Source: Leptolyngbya iicbica LK (GTDB lineage Bacteria; Cyanobacteriota; Cyanobacteriia; Phormidesmidales; Phormidesmidaceae). From it: a stretch of DNA of 64,000 nt. This document shows positions 39,630 to 45,712 of this stretch, in pieces. Location of the stretch: assembly GCF_004212215.1 (NCBI RefSeq), contig NZ_QVFV01000001.1:940814-1004813 (forward strand), read 5' to 3'. The notes under the pieces are model-generated. The model did no database searches. It was not told the DNA's origin and worked only from the letters and a program-made list of their open reading frames with translations. The first letter of the stretch is position 1. Each line of letters opens with the position of its first letter. Made by a program: the position numbers and the translations under genes.

Positions 39630-39698
39630 AGGGGCGAGGCATTTTGTGAATCACATATCGGTTATTCAAATTTGTCAGAACCAAAATGCCTCGCCCCT
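39630..39698. repeat. 17-bp perfect palindromic repeat between urc4 and upp
   Basis: AGGGGCGAGGCATTTTG (39630-39646) is exactly complementary to CAAAATGCCTCGCCCCT (39682-39698) with a 35-nt centre. Palindromes of the type GTAGGGGCG...CGCCCCTAC are widespread dispersed repeats in cyanobacteria. It lies within what is otherwise a tight gene cluster. Confidence 0.65.
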
Positions 39699-39741
39699 AC
39701 AACACCCATCCACCCTGCCACCCAACCACCCTCATACCTCC

Positions 39742-40371
39742 ATGCCCACCGTCACCCTGATCGACCATCCCCTCATCCAGCACAAGCTGACCCTGATGCG
39801 GCAAAAAGACACCAGCACGGCCAAATTTCGCAGCCTGCTGGGGGAAATCAGTATGCTGCTGGCCTACGAAGTGACCCGCGACATGCCATTGGAAAAGGTG
39901 GAAATTGAAACCCCCATGGCCATCATGCAAGCCCCCATGCTCTCCGGCAAAAAGGTGGTGCTCATTTCCATCATGCGGGCGGGACAGGGCATTCTCGACG
40001 GCATGTTGCAGCTCATGCCCTCCGCCCGAGTCGGCCACATTGGCCTATATCGCGACCCACGCACCCACATTGCCGTGGAGTATTACTTCAAAGTGCCGGG
40101 GGATGTCTCAGAGCGCGACATGTTGGTAGTCGACCCGATGCTCGCTACGGGCAACTCTGCCGTCGCCGCCGTCTATCGCCTCAAGGAAACCCAGCCCCAC
40201 TCCATCAAATTCGTCTGCCTGCTCGCCGCCCCCGAAGGCATCGAACACTTCCACTCCGAACACCCCGACGTGCCCATCTTCACCGCCGCGATCGATGACA
40301 AACTCGACGAACATGGCTACATCTTGCCGGGTTTAGGGGATGCAGGCGATCGCATGTTCGGCACCAAATAA
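39742..40371 (+). CDS. upp: Uracil phosphoribosyltransferase
   Basis: UPRT makes UMP from uracil and PRPP. The 209-residue protein starts [20 protein letters not shown] and contains the PRPP loop [12 protein letters not shown] and the uracil-site ending [17 protein letters not shown]. The open frame can be extended by 32 codons through the palindromic repeat to a GTG, but the family starts at the ATG at 39742. Within this cluster it probably has the role played by URC6 in yeast: trapping uracil as UMP for breakdown. It would also serve salvage. Confidence 0.95.
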
Positions 40372-40495
40372 TCAAGCCCGTGAAGAGAGGTGCTGCTTTT
40401 CAAGAAGAGGAGAGGTTGTGGTGCACTCTGCTCCATCGGCCCCTCTTAGCCAGCGGATATAGTAGGAGCAACTGCGCTCTATACTCTGGCACACT

Positions 40496-43400
40496 ATGGT
40501 TCTAGACATTCTGGCTGCGATCGGATTGCGAGAAGCCGGGAGCTACGTAACGAAAGACGTATTGCTGCCATTGTTACAAGGCAGTTTGGAAGATTACGCA
40601 AAAGACTTCTTCAAGAGCTGTATCGCTGACGCTGCCGGGTTAGCCCAACAGGAACCCGTGCAAAAAGCGCTGGCCAAGGCTCTGAAGGCGTTTGTGGAAC
40701 TCGTGGAGGAAGAACTGGCGTTTCAAGGCTGCACCGGGGCGGAGATTCGCGATTTTTACGAGCTGCCGCTGCGCCAATTTATGCAGGATCAGGACGTGAA
40801 GGCGACGTTGGGCCGCGCCTTTGAGCCGGATTGTCGCGCCATTGATGCGGAGGTGCTGGCGCTACGGTGGCAAGCGTTGGAGCTGCGCCCCCTGCCAGAA
40901 GAGTTTGACTGGTCGCAGATTGGCAAGCAGTATGTGCGAGCCGTGAAAGGCATTTTGCGCAGTGACGATGCGCTGCGGGACTTGTTGAAGCTGCACAATC
41001 AGGAGGCGATGCGCCAGGGCATTGAGGAACTGGTGGGCATTCCGCCGGATTTTGATTTGCGGAAGTATCAGGAAACCCTGCGGGAGCAGTACGGCAACCT
41101 GAAGCTGGAGTCGCTGGATACCACGGGCTATGCCTACAACGACCTGAAGCTGTGGCGCATGTTCATTCCCCAGGATGTGCGCACCTGCCAGGAATTTAAC
41201 CCCAAGGTGTACGAAATCCCCAAGGAGAAGCTGCAGGAACTCCAGCAGCGGGGAGAACTGGATGCGGAAGCGCTGGAGGCCGCGCAGATTGAAGAATACC
41301 GCAAGACCTATGTGGAGCAGCCGATCCAGAATGTGCTGGAGGTGGTGGGACGCACAGAAGGCGTGGGGCAGCGGAGCCGTCCGGTGGCGGACTATGCCGT
41401 GGTGCTGGAGGATCCGGGGTCGGGGAAATCGACCCTGTTGCAGTATGTGGCCCTACAGTGGGCCGAGCAGCCCATTCGCGACTTGAAGGAACTGGCCCAG
41501 CGACCGCTGCCGCTGCTGATTGAGCTGCGGAAGTATGCGCGCGATCGCAACGACAAAAAGTGCAGCAGCATGGTGGAGTATCTGCACCAGGGGGATATTG
41601 CCTGTCGGCTAAACCAGCAGCGACTCCATGAGGTGCTGACGGCAGGCAATGCGGTGGCCCTGTTTGACGGCATTGATGAAGTGTTTGACCCCAACCTGCG
41701 GGATGTGGTGGTGACGGATATTCACCGCTTTACCAACAACTACCCCCAGGTGCAGGTAGTGGTGACCTCACGGTGGCTAGGGTATAAGGCGCAGACCCTA
41801 AGGGATGCGGGGTTTCAGCACTACATGCTGCAAGACCTGACGGATGATCAGATTGCGGAATTTATTGAGCGGTGGCACGACCAGACCTTTGCCGACGGGG
41901 CAGACAAGGTCCGCAAGCAGGAGCGGCTACACAAGGCGATTCGCGAATCGAAGGCGATTCGGGAGCTAGCGGGGAATCCGCTGCTGCTGACGATGATGGC
42001 AATTTTGAACCGCCACCAGGAATTACCGCGTGATCGACCGGAACTGTATAACCAGGCATCACGGGTGCTGCTGCACCAGTGGGATGTGGAGCGGAATTTG
42101 ATTGAGCAAAAGCTCGACCCGGTGACGATCGACTATCGGGATAAGCAGGCGATGCTGCGAAAGGTGGCGTTTCACATGCAGTCGGGGGAAGCGGGGCTGG
42201 CAGGCAACATTATCAGCGCCCAAGACCTGGAAGCGATTTTGACGGACTACTTGAAATCCATCGATGTGGAGCAGCCGCGAGATGTGGCGCGACGGATGAT
42301 TCAGCAGCTGCGAACCCGCAACTTTATCCTGTGCTATCTGGGAGCCGACAATTACGCCTTCGTTCACCGTACATTTTTGGAGTTTTTTGCCGCCTGGGCC
42401 TTTGTCTGGGAGTTTAAGGAAACTCAAACGATTACGTTTGAAGAACTACGTGATCAGACCTTTGGAGCACATTGGCAGGAGGAAAGTTGGCAGGAAGTGC
42501 TGCGGCTCATTGCCGGAATGTTAAATGTAACGTTTGCAGAAGAAATAATTCAGTTTCTTCTAGACAGAGATGACCGTAGCGAAGATTATAAATATCTTTT
42601 CCTAGCCGCAGAATGCTTGACAGAGATTAGGAAGCCTAACGCGCTCGAGAATATAAATAAGCTTCTTCTTGATTCTTTGAGAGCTTTGTTGTCTGTTGAG
42701 GGTACCTATGGTGTTAGGACAAAGGCAGTTGAGGTGATCGCACATACTTGGACTGATGCAAATACCTTGCAGTGGCTAAAATCTTTGTCTGTATCAGATG
42801 GTTGGGACGATAATTGGGATGTCCGTAGGGCGTCAATACAAGCAGTTGCAAAAATTTGGCACACAGAGGTTAGCATCCAAAGCTGGCTTGAGAAGAATCT
42901 TCTTCACGACTTAGATTGGAATGTGCGAGATGAAGCTATCGAAAGCTTGGTGCCATTGTTAGATAAAAGTCGAAACTTGAAGACAAGGTTAGGGGTAATA
43001 GTCGAAAGCGACGATGACGAGGATGTGCGCAGCGCAGCCGTGCAGGCATTAGCCCAAGGGTGGAAAGACGACCCCAATACATTGCCCTGGCTCAAAACCT
43101 GTGCCCAAAGTGATGAGCATTACGCTGTGCGGAGTGCGGCGGTGCAGGCGTTAGCCAAGGGGTGGAAAGACGACCCCGATACCTTGCCCATTCTCAAAAC
43201 CCGTGCCCAAAGTGATGAGCATTACGCTGTGCGGATGGCGGCGGTGCAGGCGTTAGCCAAGGGGTGGAAAGACGACCCCGATACCTTACCCATTCTCAAA
43301 ACCCGTGCCCAAAGTGATGACAATTACGCTTTGCGGAGAGCGGCGGTGCAGGAGTTAGCCAAAGGCTTCAAAGACGACCCCGAGACCTTACCGATCCTCA

Positions 43401-44044
43401 AAACCCGCGCCCAAACGGACGATCATTACGATGTCCGGATGGCGGCGGTGCAGGAGTTAGCCCAGGGGTGGAAAGACGACCCCGATACCTTGCCCATTCT
43501 CAAAACCCGTGCCCAAAGTGATGACAATTACGCTGTGCGGATGGCGGCGGTGCAGGCATTAGCGCAGGGGTGGAAAGACGACCCCGATACCTTGCCCATT
43601 CTCAAAACCCGTGCCCAAAGTGATGAGGATAACGCTGTGCGGATGGCGGCGGTGCAGGAGTTAGCCAAAGGCTTCAAAGACGACCCCGAGACCTTACCGA
43701 TCCTCAAAACCCGCGCCCAAACGGACGATCATTACGATGTCCGGATGGCGGCGGTGCAGGAGTTAGCCCAAGGCTTCAAAGACGACCCGACTTTGTTTGA
43801 GTTTTGGTGCGATCGCACGCTCAACGATCCCTTTGAAAGAGAGTATGACTGGCAAGGGAACCCTCGTCAAACTGCTCTCAACGTGCTGGTGCAGCAATAT
43901 CCCGACCACCCCAAAACCCTGGAACTGCTGCGCGACAGAGCCCACAACGACAGCGACGAGCAGCTCAGAGAATGGGCGACGAAGCAACTGGAGCAATTAA
44001 AAATGCAAAATTCTGGAAGCCCTGTGAGTGAGTTTATTGTTTAA
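40496..44044 (+). CDS. NACHT NTPase with C-terminal HEAT repeats (candidate NLR-like immune protein)
   Basis: The 1182-residue protein has three regions. Residues 1 to about 285 are helical, with no enzyme motif seen. The NACHT module (about 295-460) has a P-loop at 305-313 (EDPGSGKST, so the usual first glycine is Glu305), Walker B with LFDGIDEVFD (390-399) and the sensor-like VVVTSRW. Then come winged-helix/helical parts to about residue 680 and HEAT-type repeats from about 730 to 1100. The last 80 residues are a different helical module. Bacterial NACHT-repeat proteins are known antiphage STAND NTPases, so a defence role is plausible but not shown. No clear ribosome binding site lies before the ATG. 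Confidence 0.8.
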   Translation: MVLDILAAIGLREAGSYVTKDVLLPLLQGSLEDYAKDFFKSCIADAAGLAQQEPVQKALAKALKAFVELVEEELAFQGCTGAEIRDFYELPLRQFMQDQDVKATLGRAFEPDCRAIDAEVLALRWQALELRPLPEEFDWSQIGKQYVRAVKGILRSDDALRDLLKLHNQEAMRQGIEELVGIPPDFDLRKYQETLREQYGNLKLESLDTTGYAYNDLKLWRMFIPQDVRTCQEFNPKVYEIPKEKLQELQQRGELDAEALEAAQIEEYRKTYVEQPIQNVLEVVGRTEGVGQRSRPVADYAVVLEDPGSGKSTLLQYVALQWAEQPIRDLKELAQRPLPLLIELRKYARDRNDKKCSSMVEYLHQGDIACRLNQQRLHEVLTAGNAVALFDGIDEVFDPNLRDVVVTDIHRFTNNYPQVQVVVTSRWLGYKAQTLRDAGFQHYMLQDLTDDQIAEFIERWHDQTFADGADKVRKQERLHKAIRESKAIRELAGNPLLLTMMAILNRHQELPRDRPELYNQASRVLLHQWDVERNLIEQKLDPVTIDYRDKQAMLRKVAFHMQSGEAGLAGNIISAQDLEAILTDYLKSIDVEQPRDVARRMIQQLRTRNFILCYLGADNYAFVHRTFLEFFAAWAFVWEFKETQTITFEELRDQTFGAHWQEESWQEVLRLIAGMLNVTFAEEIIQFLLDRDDRSEDYKYLFLAAECLTEIRKPNALENINKLLLDSLRALLSVEGTYGVRTKAVEVIAHTWTDANTLQWLKSLSVSDGWDDNWDVRRASIQAVAKIWHTEVSIQSWLEKNLLHDLDWNVRDEAIESLVPLLDKSRNLKTRLGVIVESDDDEDVRSAAVQALAQGWKDDPNTLPWLKTCAQSDEHYAVRSAAVQALAKGWKDDPDTLPILKTRAQSDEHYAVRMAAVQALAKGWKDDPDTLPILKTRAQSDDNYALRRAAVQELAKGFKDDPETLPILKTRAQTDDHYDVRMAAVQELAQGWKDDPDTLPILKTRAQSDDNYAVRMAAVQALAQGWKDDPDTLPILKTRAQSDEDNAVRMAAVQELAKGFKDDPETLPILKTRAQTDDHYDVRMAAVQELAQGFKDDPTLFEFWCDRTLNDPFEREYDWQGNPRQTALNVLVQQYPDHPKTLELLRDRAHNDSDEQLREWATKQLEQLKMQNSGSPVSEFIV
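43022..43793 (+). repeat. Tandem 102-bp HEAT repeat array inside the NACHT gene
   Basis: Units start at 43022, 43124, 43226, 43328, 43430, 43532, 43634 and 43736 (the last is partial). Each codes for a 34-residue HEAT unit of the type VRMAAVQALAKGWKDDPDTL. Units 4-5 and 7-8 are almost base-identical at a distance of 306 bp, which shows a recent three-unit duplication. Differences fall mainly in the residues just after ILKTRAQ, at the likely exposed loop. Confidence 0.9.
43878..44013 (+). repeat. Direct repeat, left copy (3' end of NACHT gene)
   Basis: This 136-bp stretch codes for NVLVQQYPDHPKTLELLRDR and following residues at the end of the NACHT protein. It matches 44589-44724 in the same orientation with scattered base differences. 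The toxin-antitoxin pair lies between the copies. Confidence 0.85.
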
Positions 44045-44060
44045 AAAAACGGAGAGAATG

Positions 44061-44288
44061 ATGACAACCTTATTGGAACAAGCATTTAGAGAAGCCTCAA
44101 GATTGCCAAGCGAGCTTCAGGATGAGATTGCTCAGCAACTGCTAGACGACATTGAGAATGAACTTAAGTGGCAAGCAACCTTTTCTGACTCAGATACCGA
44201 CATAGGCAGTTTTGCCGCAATGGCTCAAGCCGCTCTGGTCGAAGACGACGCAGGCAAAACGGAAGAAAAAGGCTTTGGCGAAGTGTAA
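44061..44288 (+). CDS. Antitoxin-like small protein of a RelE/ParE-type module
   Basis: This 75-residue acidic protein (LEQAFREASRLPSELQDEIAQQLLDDIENE) has the helical layout of cyanobacterial antitoxins paired with RelE/ParE toxins. The second of two adjacent ATGs (44061) stands 6 nt after GGAG, so it is chosen over 44058. The longest frame starts 33 bp earlier within the NACHT 3' end. The stop codon overlaps the toxin start by 1 bp (TAATG), the usual coupled arrangement. Confidence 0.75.
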   Translation: MTTLLEQAFREASRLPSELQDEIAQQLLDDIENELKWQATFSDSDTDIGSFAAMAQAALVEDDAGKTEEKGFGEV

Positions 44289-44563
44289 TGAAGTCGTCGA
44301 GAACTCAAGATTTTCGCAAGCTGTTTTCTAAACTGCCCAACCGGGTCAAAGCAACTGCCAGGAAGAACTATCAGCTTTGGCGAGAAAATCCTTCTCATCC
44401 CAGTCTGGAGTTCAAAAAGGTCAACAACAAGCTAAATATCTGGTCAGTTCGAGTTGGTATTGGCTGGCGAGCTTTAGGCGTCATGAAACCACAAGAGAAT
44501 AAGATTGTCTGGTTCTGGATTGGCTCTCATGCTGAATACGATCGCATTCTCAAGACAAAGTAA
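44288..44563 (+). CDS. RelE/ParE-family toxin
   Basis: This 91-residue basic protein (FRKLFSKLPNRVKATARKNY, then SVRVGIGWRALGV and FWIGSHAEYDRI) follows the RelE/ParE fold pattern seen in cyanobacterial type II modules. Such toxins cleave ribosome-bound mRNA or act on gyrase; which applies here is unknown. It is translationally coupled to the antitoxin. It is followed at 21 bp by the remnant of the NACHT 3' end. Confidence 0.8.
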   Translation: MKSSRTQDFRKLFSKLPNRVKATARKNYQLWRENPSHPSLEFKKVNNKLNIWSVRVGIGWRALGVMKPQENKIVWFWIGSHAEYDRILKTK

Positions 44564-44584
44564 TGCTCGTTTTCTCCAGCTATA

Positions 44585-44770
44585 TTGTTCAACGTATTCA
44601 TGCAGCAATATCCTGACCATCCCAAAACCCTGGAACTGCTGCGCGACAGAGCCCAAAACGACAACGATGAGCAGTTTAGAGATTGGGCGACGGAGCAACT
44701 GGAGCAATTCAAAATTCAAAATGCAAATCTAAAGAAGCAGGAGTCTGTATTTGCTCATGAAATCCCTTAA
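44585..44770 (+). pseudogene. Remnant of a NACHT-HEAT C-terminus
   Basis: The 61-codon frame opens at a TTG and reads QQYPDHPKTLELLRDRAQND, closely matching the last 45 or so residues of the NACHT protein. It has no P-loop, no proper start and no ribosome binding site, so it is a duplicated fragment rather than a gene. Its end overlaps the DUF433 start by 14 bp. Confidence 0.75.
44589..44724 (+). repeat. Direct repeat, right copy
   Basis: Second copy of the 136-bp sequence at 43878-44013, 711 bp downstream and in the same orientation. Similarity fades upstream of TTCAACGT and downstream of the A-rich end (CAAAATGC). Confidence 0.85.
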
Positions 44771-44987
44771 TCGCATCACGCTCAATCCTGGAGTCATGGG
44801 CGGCAAGCCTTGTATCCGAGGGCTGCGAGTCACAGTTGGCGCTGTCGTGGGGCTTTTAGCCAGTGGGCGTTCCACCGACGACGTGCTCAAAGCGTATCCC
44901 TATCTAGAAATTGAGGATATTTATGAAGCCCTCACCTACGCCGCTTGGCGAGTTGATGAGATTGAAGTGCCTCTGGTCTCCACATGA
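44757..44987 (+). CDS. DUF433 antitoxin-like protein
   Basis: This 76-residue protein (RITLNPGVMGGKPCIRGLRV, then EDIYEALTYAAWR) is a typical DUF433 member. The family has a winged-helix-like fold and is normally encoded just upstream of a PIN-like DUF5615 toxin. No such toxin follows: the sequence after the stop contains only frames shorter than 25 codons before the convergent GST gene. It may be an orphan antitoxin or the survivor of a broken pair. AGGAG lies 13 nt before the ATG. Confidence 0.85.
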   Translation: MKSLNRITLNPGVMGGKPCIRGLRVTVGAVVGLLASGRSTDDVLKAYPYLEIEDIYEALTYAAWRVDEIEVPLVST

Positions 44988-45043
44988 AAGGTGAAGCCCA
45001 ATGTCGACATCAGCGGCGAGACGATGCGGAATGAGCTTGTGAG

Positions 45044-45712
45044 CTACGAATAGGGTCGGGCTGCTGCGTCGATAAAGGGTAAGGTTTCGGCTTCGTGGGC
45101 GGCATCGCGGCACCAGGCTTTTACCGACTCTAGTGCTTGGGTGCGGGTGACGAACTGCTGGGCCGTGGGCTCAAGCTGAATGCCGTAGGTCACAAACCGC
45201 AACGCCACCGGCACATACATGACATCCGAGATCGAAAACTCACCGCATAGCCAGGGGCCACCATAACGTTCAAAGCCGTCTTGCCAGAGCCGCTCAACCC
45301 GCGCGATCTCTCGTTGAGCCGTGCTCGAAAAGTCGTCGAGCGATCGCTGCTGACACACCCGCAAATTTTGCGGCAGTTCTTCCCGAATGGCCATGAAGCC
45401 CGAGTGCATTTCCGTTGCAATGGAGCGAGCGTGGGCGCGCGCGGCGCGATCGCTCGGCCAGCCCACCGTATCGGCAAAGTTTTCCCGCACATACTCCATA
45501 ATGGCGAGCGAATCCCAGATCGCAATGTCACCATCCAGTAACACCGGCACCTTGCCAGCCGGGGTATAGCGATTGATCTCAGTCTGCCACTGCTCAGTAA
45601 ACAGCGCTAACTTAATCTCTTCAAATTCCACCCCGCTCTGCCGCAAAAAGAGCCAGGCCCGCAATGACCATGAAGAATAGTTTTTGTTGCCGATAATCAG
45701 CTTCAGAGACAC
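45044..45712 (-). CDS. Glutathione S-transferase family protein
   Basis: This 222-residue protein has an N-terminal thioredoxin-like domain (KLIIGNKNYSSWSLRAWLFL, then GKVPVLLDGDIAIWDSLAI) and a helical C-terminal domain. The NYSSWS segment holds the likely catalytic serine or tyrosine. The group acts in detoxification or glutathione-dependent reduction; the substrate is unknown. It is 81 bp downstream of the carotenoid oxygenase gene on the same strand. Confidence 0.88.
   Translation of the reverse strand: MSLKLIIGNKNYSSWSLRAWLFLRQSGVEFEEIKLALFTEQWQTEINRYTPAGKVPVLLDGDIAIWDSLAIMEYVRENFADTVGWPSDRAARAHARSIATEMHSGFMAIREELPQNLRVCQQRSLDDFSSTAQREIARVERLWQDGFERYGGPWLCGEFSISDVMYVPVALRFVTYGIQLEPTAQQFVTRTQALESVKAWCRDAAHEAETLPFIDAAARPYS

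Follow-up and report, generated by a model that had tools for sequence, protein, structure and literature searches.

A candidate NNH2-NACHT-HEAT receptor with a variable repeat sensor downstream of upp in Leptolyngbya iicbica LK

Introduction

The closest described systems are the bNACHT proteins, NLR-related bacterial NACHT proteins that are active against phages according to PMC12169576, where Kibby et al. (2023) is cited. Within this group, clade 6 combines a PD-(D/E)XK nuclease with NCH1 and clade 14 bears SNaCT (PMC12169576), and bacterial N-NACHT/HEAT architectures are likewise said to occur (PMC12258605). How such NLR-like receptors keep up with changing phage targets is largely an open question. 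Here, we describe a gene for an NNH2-NACHT-HEAT protein from the filamentous cyanobacterium Leptolyngbya iicbica LK, found in a stretch of 64,000 nucleotides (nt) of contig NZ_QVFV01000001.1 (positions 940,814 to 1,004,813 of the forward strand), which is referred to as the window and provides the numbering for all coordinates of the studied gene and its neighbours. From its domains, its relatives and its genomic site, the gene product is probably a single-gene, NLR-like intracellular receptor of the bNACHT kind, with HEAT repeats as sensor, NACHT as switch and NNH2 as executor of a death response triggered by non-self. The sensor, and not a private change in the P-loop, is the interesting part.

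Results and Discussion

Domain architecture

The open reading frame (ORF; 40496..44044, + strand) begins with ATG and encodes 1182 amino acids (aa) without internal stop. The helical N-terminus, NACHT module and HEAT repeats proposed in the first-pass annotation, which had been made from the sequence alone, are all recovered by Pfam as NNH2, NACHT and HEAT_2. NNH2 (NACHT N-terminal helical domain 2; PF22734, E 7e-62), presumed to be the effector or signalling domain, covers residues 27–209 (40574..41122, + strand), the NACHT module (E 1.1e-9) residues 306–462 (41411..41881, + strand), and HEAT_2 (E 1.2e-62) matches in six stretches, the best of which spans residues 835–921. The tripartite layout of an N-terminal NNH2, a central NACHT and C-terminal HEAT repeats is thereby complete. 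Because a profile built from 34 homologues matches the NACHT of NLRC4 (5aj2, E 1.1e-5) and, more weakly, 5irm (E 0.001) and 5irl (both NOD2), the module is of the NLR type. On these assignments, the protein is best classed as an NNH2-NACHT-HEAT STAND protein of the bNACHT kind.

The N-terminus had been annotated as neither a recognised nuclease nor a pore former, and this stands; it can no longer be called unplaced, however, since residues 27–209 are NNH2. No Pfam match to the PD-(D/E)XK nuclease with NCH1 of clade 6 or the SNaCT of clade 14 was obtained at E values up to 1, and the profile comparison with STAND, Avs and bNACHT families that had been proposed returned Pfam NNH2 and NACHT but no PADLOC match to the Avs models, again at E values up to 1. 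The structure prediction suggested for the N-terminus gives an all-helical NNH2, albeit in an AlphaFold2 (AF2) model of low confidence (predicted local distance difference test, pLDDT, of 58) in which residues ~60–150 reach a pLDDT of ~80–90, and a Foldseek search with this model found no match below E 1. A solved relative sought by plain sequence comparison was not found either. In a full-length AF2 model computed from five sequences, the HEAT helices are usable and NACHT is not modelled. A transmembrane helix is not supported for the first 300 residues, where the maximal 19-residue hydropathy is 1.11; the hydrophobic character of the first 28 residues would allow membrane contact without demonstrating it. 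Among the papers searched, none describing NNH2 was found.

A conserved switch and an exchanged sensor

Comparison with orthologues divides the protein into two parts of very different behaviour. Residues 1–690 show dN/dS values of 0.06–0.10 against six orthologues and, hence, the NNH2-NACHT switch is under strong purifying selection. At about residues 668–690 (42498..42565, + strand), identity to the orthologues falls from 84–93% to below 40%. Blastn alignments to six orthologues stop at 42498–42520, and in blocks of 40 residues identity is mostly 80–100% up to about residue 680 and then 0–40% over residues 681–840, before recovering in the repeats and the C-terminal tail to an extent that varies by orthologue. 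The beginning of the sensor, a highly divergent helical-repeat region at about residues 690–855 (42563..43057, + strand), falls into no fewer than four types when seven orthologues are compared. Those of genomes G310, G012 and G003 form one type (66–74% identical), whereas the studied protein and those of G346 and G023 have no close relative, their best matches being 35, 31 and 32% identical, respectively; the 35% match to the studied sensor start sits in a protein whose N-terminal part is just 53% identical. The sensor start of G010 is 59% identical to that of the distant G107 and only 30% to the studied one, although the N-terminal part of G010 is 85% identical to that of the studied protein. 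This crossed resemblance shows that the sensor has been exchanged as a cassette from about residue 690.

Downstream of this region, the studied gene holds seven tandem HEAT units of 34 aa, corresponding to 102 nt each (43058..43771, + strand), which are mainly variable at unit positions 11, 20–23, 26 and 31. Eight such units are present in G310, 17 in G012 and three in G003; G010 has two matched units, and G346 and G023 lack them, so that orthologues with 84–93% identical N-terminal parts carry 0–17 matched units, a polymorphism between species and not within a population; arrays assembled from short reads may, however, be mis-assembled. In 19 of the 58 family members, three or more near-identical units are present, and their length is almost always 102 nt. 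Very long arrays of about 16–18 near-identical HEAT units in relatives (L035 7363-11832 and L085 5200-9381) would provide good material for studying repeat evolution. Units 4 and 7 of the studied gene differ at one of 102 nt, with near-identity extending over ~240 nt into the neighbouring units, and reflect a recent duplication; the recent repeat changes seen in the first-pass annotation are thus real, and the HEAT copy number has changed by duplication of units. Mean aa identity among the studied units is 82% (76–88% between neighbours), compared to the criterion of more than 85% over at least 100 aa used in PMC4986451, and the mean nt identity of units in relatives amounts to 96% in G310 and 91% in G012.

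For locating the variation within the unit, positions 7, 11, 21, 22, 23, 26, 31 and 34 were picked on five close arrays and tested on eleven arrays from more distant proteins. In the latter, pN/pS, used here as a descriptive ratio, is 1.46 at the picked positions versus 0.40 elsewhere, and the pN values of the single positions in the two sets are correlated (Spearman 0.73, p 1e-6). Amino-acid change is concentrated at a few unit positions that are common to independent arrays. According to the AF2 model of the array (pLDDT ~80–88 over most of it), helix A comprises unit positions 8–18 and helix B positions 22–34, which places the most variable positions on helix A, in the loop and in the initial turns of helix B.

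Distribution and transfer

Of the 390 genomes of the class, 100 have NNH2 above its cut-off, in 1–6 copies and with many fragments, and none of 14 control genomes does. The orthologue of G310, a member of another genus, is 91% identical at the aa level with a dS of 0.70, compared to 70% and a dS of 1.5 for a GTP cyclohydrolase II-like marker, and the same contrast between marker and NACHT gene is seen with G346 and G023. The closest orthologues are mostly from other genera; G003, from the same genus, is more distant in the NACHT gene (dS 1.31), and G004, the nearest genome by the marker (95% identity), is yet without NNH2. As the NACHT gene is nearer than the marker gene to genomes of other genera, it has, on the evidence of this one marker, been transferred horizontally. 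A phage origin is not suggested, residues 1–300 being without match in 50,697 phage records, and the PHROGs matches of the protein fall in and directly after the NACHT part. Broken copies were also encountered: a more distant NNH2-NACHT copy in G005 (L050 8291-9450) is split near residue 535–543 by an insertion with transposase ORFs, and a 58% identical copy in G057 (L040 3632-6658) consists of two ORFs with an internal stop and is decaying.

STAND proteins can be regulators, as mentioned in PMC10427625, and the HEAT part is weakly similar to NblB (47.6 of 300 bits) and CpcF (34.1 of 220 bits), both far below the cut-offs. A transcriptional or metabolic regulator of the MalT-like type, or a phycobilisome-related HEAT protein, is nevertheless the most improbable of the readings considered. 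The Pfam search of the protein matched no DNA-binding domain, and the gene is patchily distributed, transferred, devoid of a conserved neighbour and equipped with a hypervariable sensor. An assignment to a non-defence regulator family, which the first-pass annotation had named as contrary evidence, did not emerge.

The P-loop

Glu305 (codon GAG, 41408-41410) replaces glycine in the P-loop VLEDPGSGKST (residues 303–313, 41402..41434, + strand), confirming the earlier reading of the motif as EDPGSGKST, and Lys311 and Ser312 are kept. The Walker B motif LFDGIDE (residues 389–395, 41660..41680, + strand), rightly annotated as intact, matches the family (D391 in 57 of 58 members; G392, D394 and E395 in all 58), and the TSR motif at residues 424–426 agrees with the family as well. 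Residue 305 is glycine in 57 of 57 homologues (39–92% identical), and it is the only departure of the studied protein among the 98 columns that 56 or more of these homologues conserve. A degenerate DNA pattern for the Glu-form P-loop was found in one of the 390 class genomes, namely this one, the matching control scan with the Gly form not having been run. With glycine in all homologues and the Glu motif in a single genome, an altered P-loop is ruled out as a subfamily feature, and what had been put forward as a feature of the system comes down to one private substitution. The orthologues use GGG, GGC or GGA at codon 305, GAG being one transition away from GGG. Hence, either Glu305 arose recently as a private substitution, in a gene that purifying selection otherwise conserves, or it is a sequencing error; the allele may be active, altered or dead, and, more speculatively, nucleotide control may be altered in the Glu305 variant.

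It is conceivable, albeit rather unlikely, that the studied copy is a recently disabled receptor allele in which Glu305 blocks ATP binding or switching, with the gene heading to decay. The strict conservation of Gly305, as the sole departure among the conserved columns, favours this, and broken copies are common in the family (the insertion sequence in G005, the stop and split frame in G057, many fragments). On the other hand, the ORF is otherwise intact and shows only seven private amino acids in residues 1–690, Glu305 among them; at codons identical in all other orthologues, 13 private synonymous changes stand against no private non-synonymous one. Moreover, the Walker lysine and serine as well as Walker B are intact, and Glu305 may itself be an assembly error.

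The site downstream of upp

The studied gene is flanked by upp and a gene for a glutathione S-transferase-like protein, and the same two genes bound the corresponding segment of G004, which encodes a PemK toxin, a type IV Mrr restriction enzyme (PADLOC, E 2e-84), a ParDE pair and a DUF2283 protein. Directly after upp, G005 encodes a Shedu-like protein (Pfam SduA_C, 5e-8) and a truncated PemK, and G002 an ASCH protein (PADLOC candidate PDC-M11B, 5e-28), whereas in G003 no defence or toxin-antitoxin gene follows and the site runs into a phospholipase D gene. Differing defence or toxin-antitoxin genes thus occupy the site in four of the five genus members examined (segments compared: window 40371-45044, L060 5574-10030, L061 8897-13024, L062 1-1643 and L063 8401-10528). 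From this gene content, the site downstream of upp is a defence and toxin-antitoxin hotspot, which is stronger evidence for defence than the toxin-antitoxin pair adjacent to the NACHT gene, and it could be mined for new systems. The Mrr-like enzyme of G004 (L060 7168-8193) also matches the Pfam family "NACHT-associated inactive Restriction Endonuclease 1" (E 7e-8). On the other side of the studied gene, about 50 nt at about 39680-39735 match some twenty places in the same genome and many in other genus members. This dispersed short repeat is probably non-coding and is taken by the mechanical ORF as an N-terminal extension of upp, the true start of which likely lies just 3' of it at ~39742.

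Taken together, the patchy distribution, the horizontal transfer and the position at this variable defence site argue that a housekeeping role is excluded; the universally conserved housekeeping orthologues that would have spoken against defence were not found, NNH2 being present in 100 of 390 genomes. The first-pass description of a defence-type locus holds in that the hotspot and the fast-changing sensor support it, but not for its other argument, as the adjacent toxin-antitoxin and DUF433 genes are not conserved partners.

Recognition of self and non-self or of kin between filaments, or the sensing of mobile elements, might be served instead of antiphage defence. The sensor has evolved like those of the fungal HNWD/HET NLRs, with near-identical repeats, length polymorphism and diversification at set positions (PMC4986451, PMC12222747). 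In addition, the NNH2 family is frequent in the large genomes of the class. Cyanobacterial filaments, however, are not known to fuse their cytoplasm as hyphae do. Since, in addition, phages are the target of those bacterial NACHT proteins that have been tested (PMC12169576) and the same site holds restriction and Shedu-like genes in sister genomes, we regard this alternative to an antiphage receptor as improbable.

Downstream genes

The toxin-antitoxin and DUF433 genes annotated downstream are indeed present. An antitoxin-like ORF without Pfam match (44058..44288, + strand) starts 14 nt past the NACHT stop and overlaps stop to start at 44288 with a ParE-like toxin (44288..44563, + strand; PF24732, E 4e-9), the layout of a type II toxin-antitoxin system. 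Both ORFs sit between two copies of the NACHT gene 3' end, copy 1 of this 134-nt direct repeat being the gene's own end (43878..44011, + strand) and copy 2 an orphan (44589..44722, + strand) that is 89% identical. The DUF433 protein follows (44757..44987, + strand; Pfam, E 2e-24). In G346, the NACHT 3' end joins DUF433 directly (80% identical), and window 44589-44971 is collinear with L065 3178-3589 at 71%; in G012, a degraded remnant of the same ParE-like toxin lies just downstream of the NACHT orthologue. The simplest reading would be recombination of a 3' end, together with the toxin pair attached to it, into a place ahead of the older 3' end and DUF433; alternatively, an internal duplication may have been followed by an insertion.

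That the ParE-like pair, DUF433 and the NACHT gene constitute one defence operon is very improbable. The short distance of the antitoxin start from the NACHT stop would fit, and so would the ParE remnant behind the G012 orthologue and DUF433 behind that of G346. Among the homologue loci, however, related ParE genes occur in L035, L043 and L047 only and DUF433 in those of G346 (two records of one contig) and G003 only, and the toxin-antitoxin pair is flanked by the two 3' end copies as if brought in by recombination. Furthermore, neighbours across the family are diverse, with Uma2 (4) and PIN (3) leading among 110 near ORFs, two families that are not among the leading ones of 110 distant ORFs. 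These comparisons rule out the toxin-antitoxin pair and DUF433 as conserved partners, so their annotation as parts of the system is not upheld, and the toxin-antitoxin pair looks like an adjacent hitch-hiker. The G003 orthologue (L036 8763-11355) is followed by a DUF433-DUF5615 (PIN-like) pair, a Uma2-like ORF and a NurA-domain protein.

Proposed mechanism and significance

For a single-gene receptor, the following course may be envisaged. The HEAT solenoid would keep the receptor off until it binds a protein of an invader, such as a phage, or an altered-self protein; by analogy with tested bNACHT proteins, the ligand could be a phage protein or a host protein altered by the phage (PMC12169576). 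NACHT would then exchange its nucleotide and oligomerise, and the clustered NNH2 helical domains might cause growth arrest or cell death. Recombination of repeats and swapping of sensors would re-target the receptor, as has been proposed for fungal NLRs (PMC4986451, PMC12222747). Ligand recognition, oligomerisation, effector action and protection against phages are steps that we infer. The annotation as a NACHT STAND receptor whose repeat sensor changes fast is borne out by the steep loss of identity at ~690, the arrays of 0–17 units, the patchy distribution, the transfer and the hotspot.

Several observations weigh against the proposed receptor. Glutamate occupies an otherwise invariant P-loop glycine and the studied allele could be inactive; NNH2 has neither a solved structure nor a usable AF2 model, and PADLOC gives only a weak PDC-S60 match (E 2e-4) over the NACHT part. 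In the studied array itself, pN does not exceed pS (ratio 0.42 over all positions and 0.64 at the variable ones, selected by eye), and pN/pS ratios of recombining repeats are descriptive and not a formal test. Transfer, finally, was judged from one marker gene.

More tentatively, the family might represent a natural repertoire of non-self receptors that multicellular cyanobacteria generate by recombination, in which a conserved NNH2-NACHT switch crosses genera, while its HEAT sensor is exchanged as a cassette and diversified anew, through duplication of units, at a few positions of the binding surface. The family would then be a bacterial counterpart of fungal HNWD. If this is true, bacterial NACHT defence would be tied to fungal allorecognition receptors through the mode of sensor evolution. 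How such receptors keep up with phage targets can readily be tested in this family, the orthologues of which have almost identical effectors and switches yet differ in sensor and repeat number. If the variable HEAT positions contact the ligand, the residues setting specificity would be revealed in a frame close to the engineered alphaRep scaffold.

Comparison with known systems

The present combination of architecture and sensor variation was not found described for bacterial NACHT-HEAT proteins, a weak sign of novelty given that subscription papers, including the 2023 bNACHT study, were outside the search. Avs proteins (antiviral STAND) resemble the studied protein in the STAND switch, the N-terminal effector and the C-terminal sensor. 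The Avs sensor consists of tetratricopeptide repeats (TPR), whereas the sensor is built of HEAT repeats here and no Avs model is matched in PADLOC at E values up to 1. NACHT antigen sensors diversified by diversity-generating retroelements (DGR) in multicellular bacteria (PMC10907252) share the STAND switch, a diversified sensor and a proposed immune role, but in the studied family diversification is by tandem-repeat duplication and sensor swapping (no search aimed at DGR was made) in a HEAT solenoid and not a C-lectin fold. The artificial alphaRep binders (PMC3754942) likewise consist of HEAT-like repeats in which the frame is constant and a few surface positions of each unit vary. Unlike these, the studied array is natural; its variable positions are 11 on helix A, 21 in the loop and 22, 23 and 26 where helix B begins, and as the register differs, a shared binding face is not shown.

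The studied family also resembles the fungal NLRs with high internal conservation (HNWD/HET-D/HET-E as well as NLRs with TPR or ankyrin (ANK) repeats; PMC4986451, PMC12222747), which likewise join an NLR switch to near-identical tandem repeats and show repeat-number polymorphism, set-position diversification and concerted evolution. In contrast to these, the studied family is bacterial, combines HEAT units with NNH2 and exchanges the sensor start as a cassette in addition; its differences are between species and not within a population, and the studied array is less homogeneous. With bNACHT proteins, finally, the studied one shares the central NACHT, the tripartite single-gene organisation, the patchy distribution and the transfer. 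It differs in having NNH2 instead of the PD-(D/E)XK nuclease of clade 6, in the lack of a SNaCT or NCH1 match, in the hypervariable near-identical HEAT array of its family and in the Glu305 of its own allele. Judged from these comparisons, the bNACHT-type receptor appears to be of a known kind and its unusually variable HEAT sensor to be the new part.

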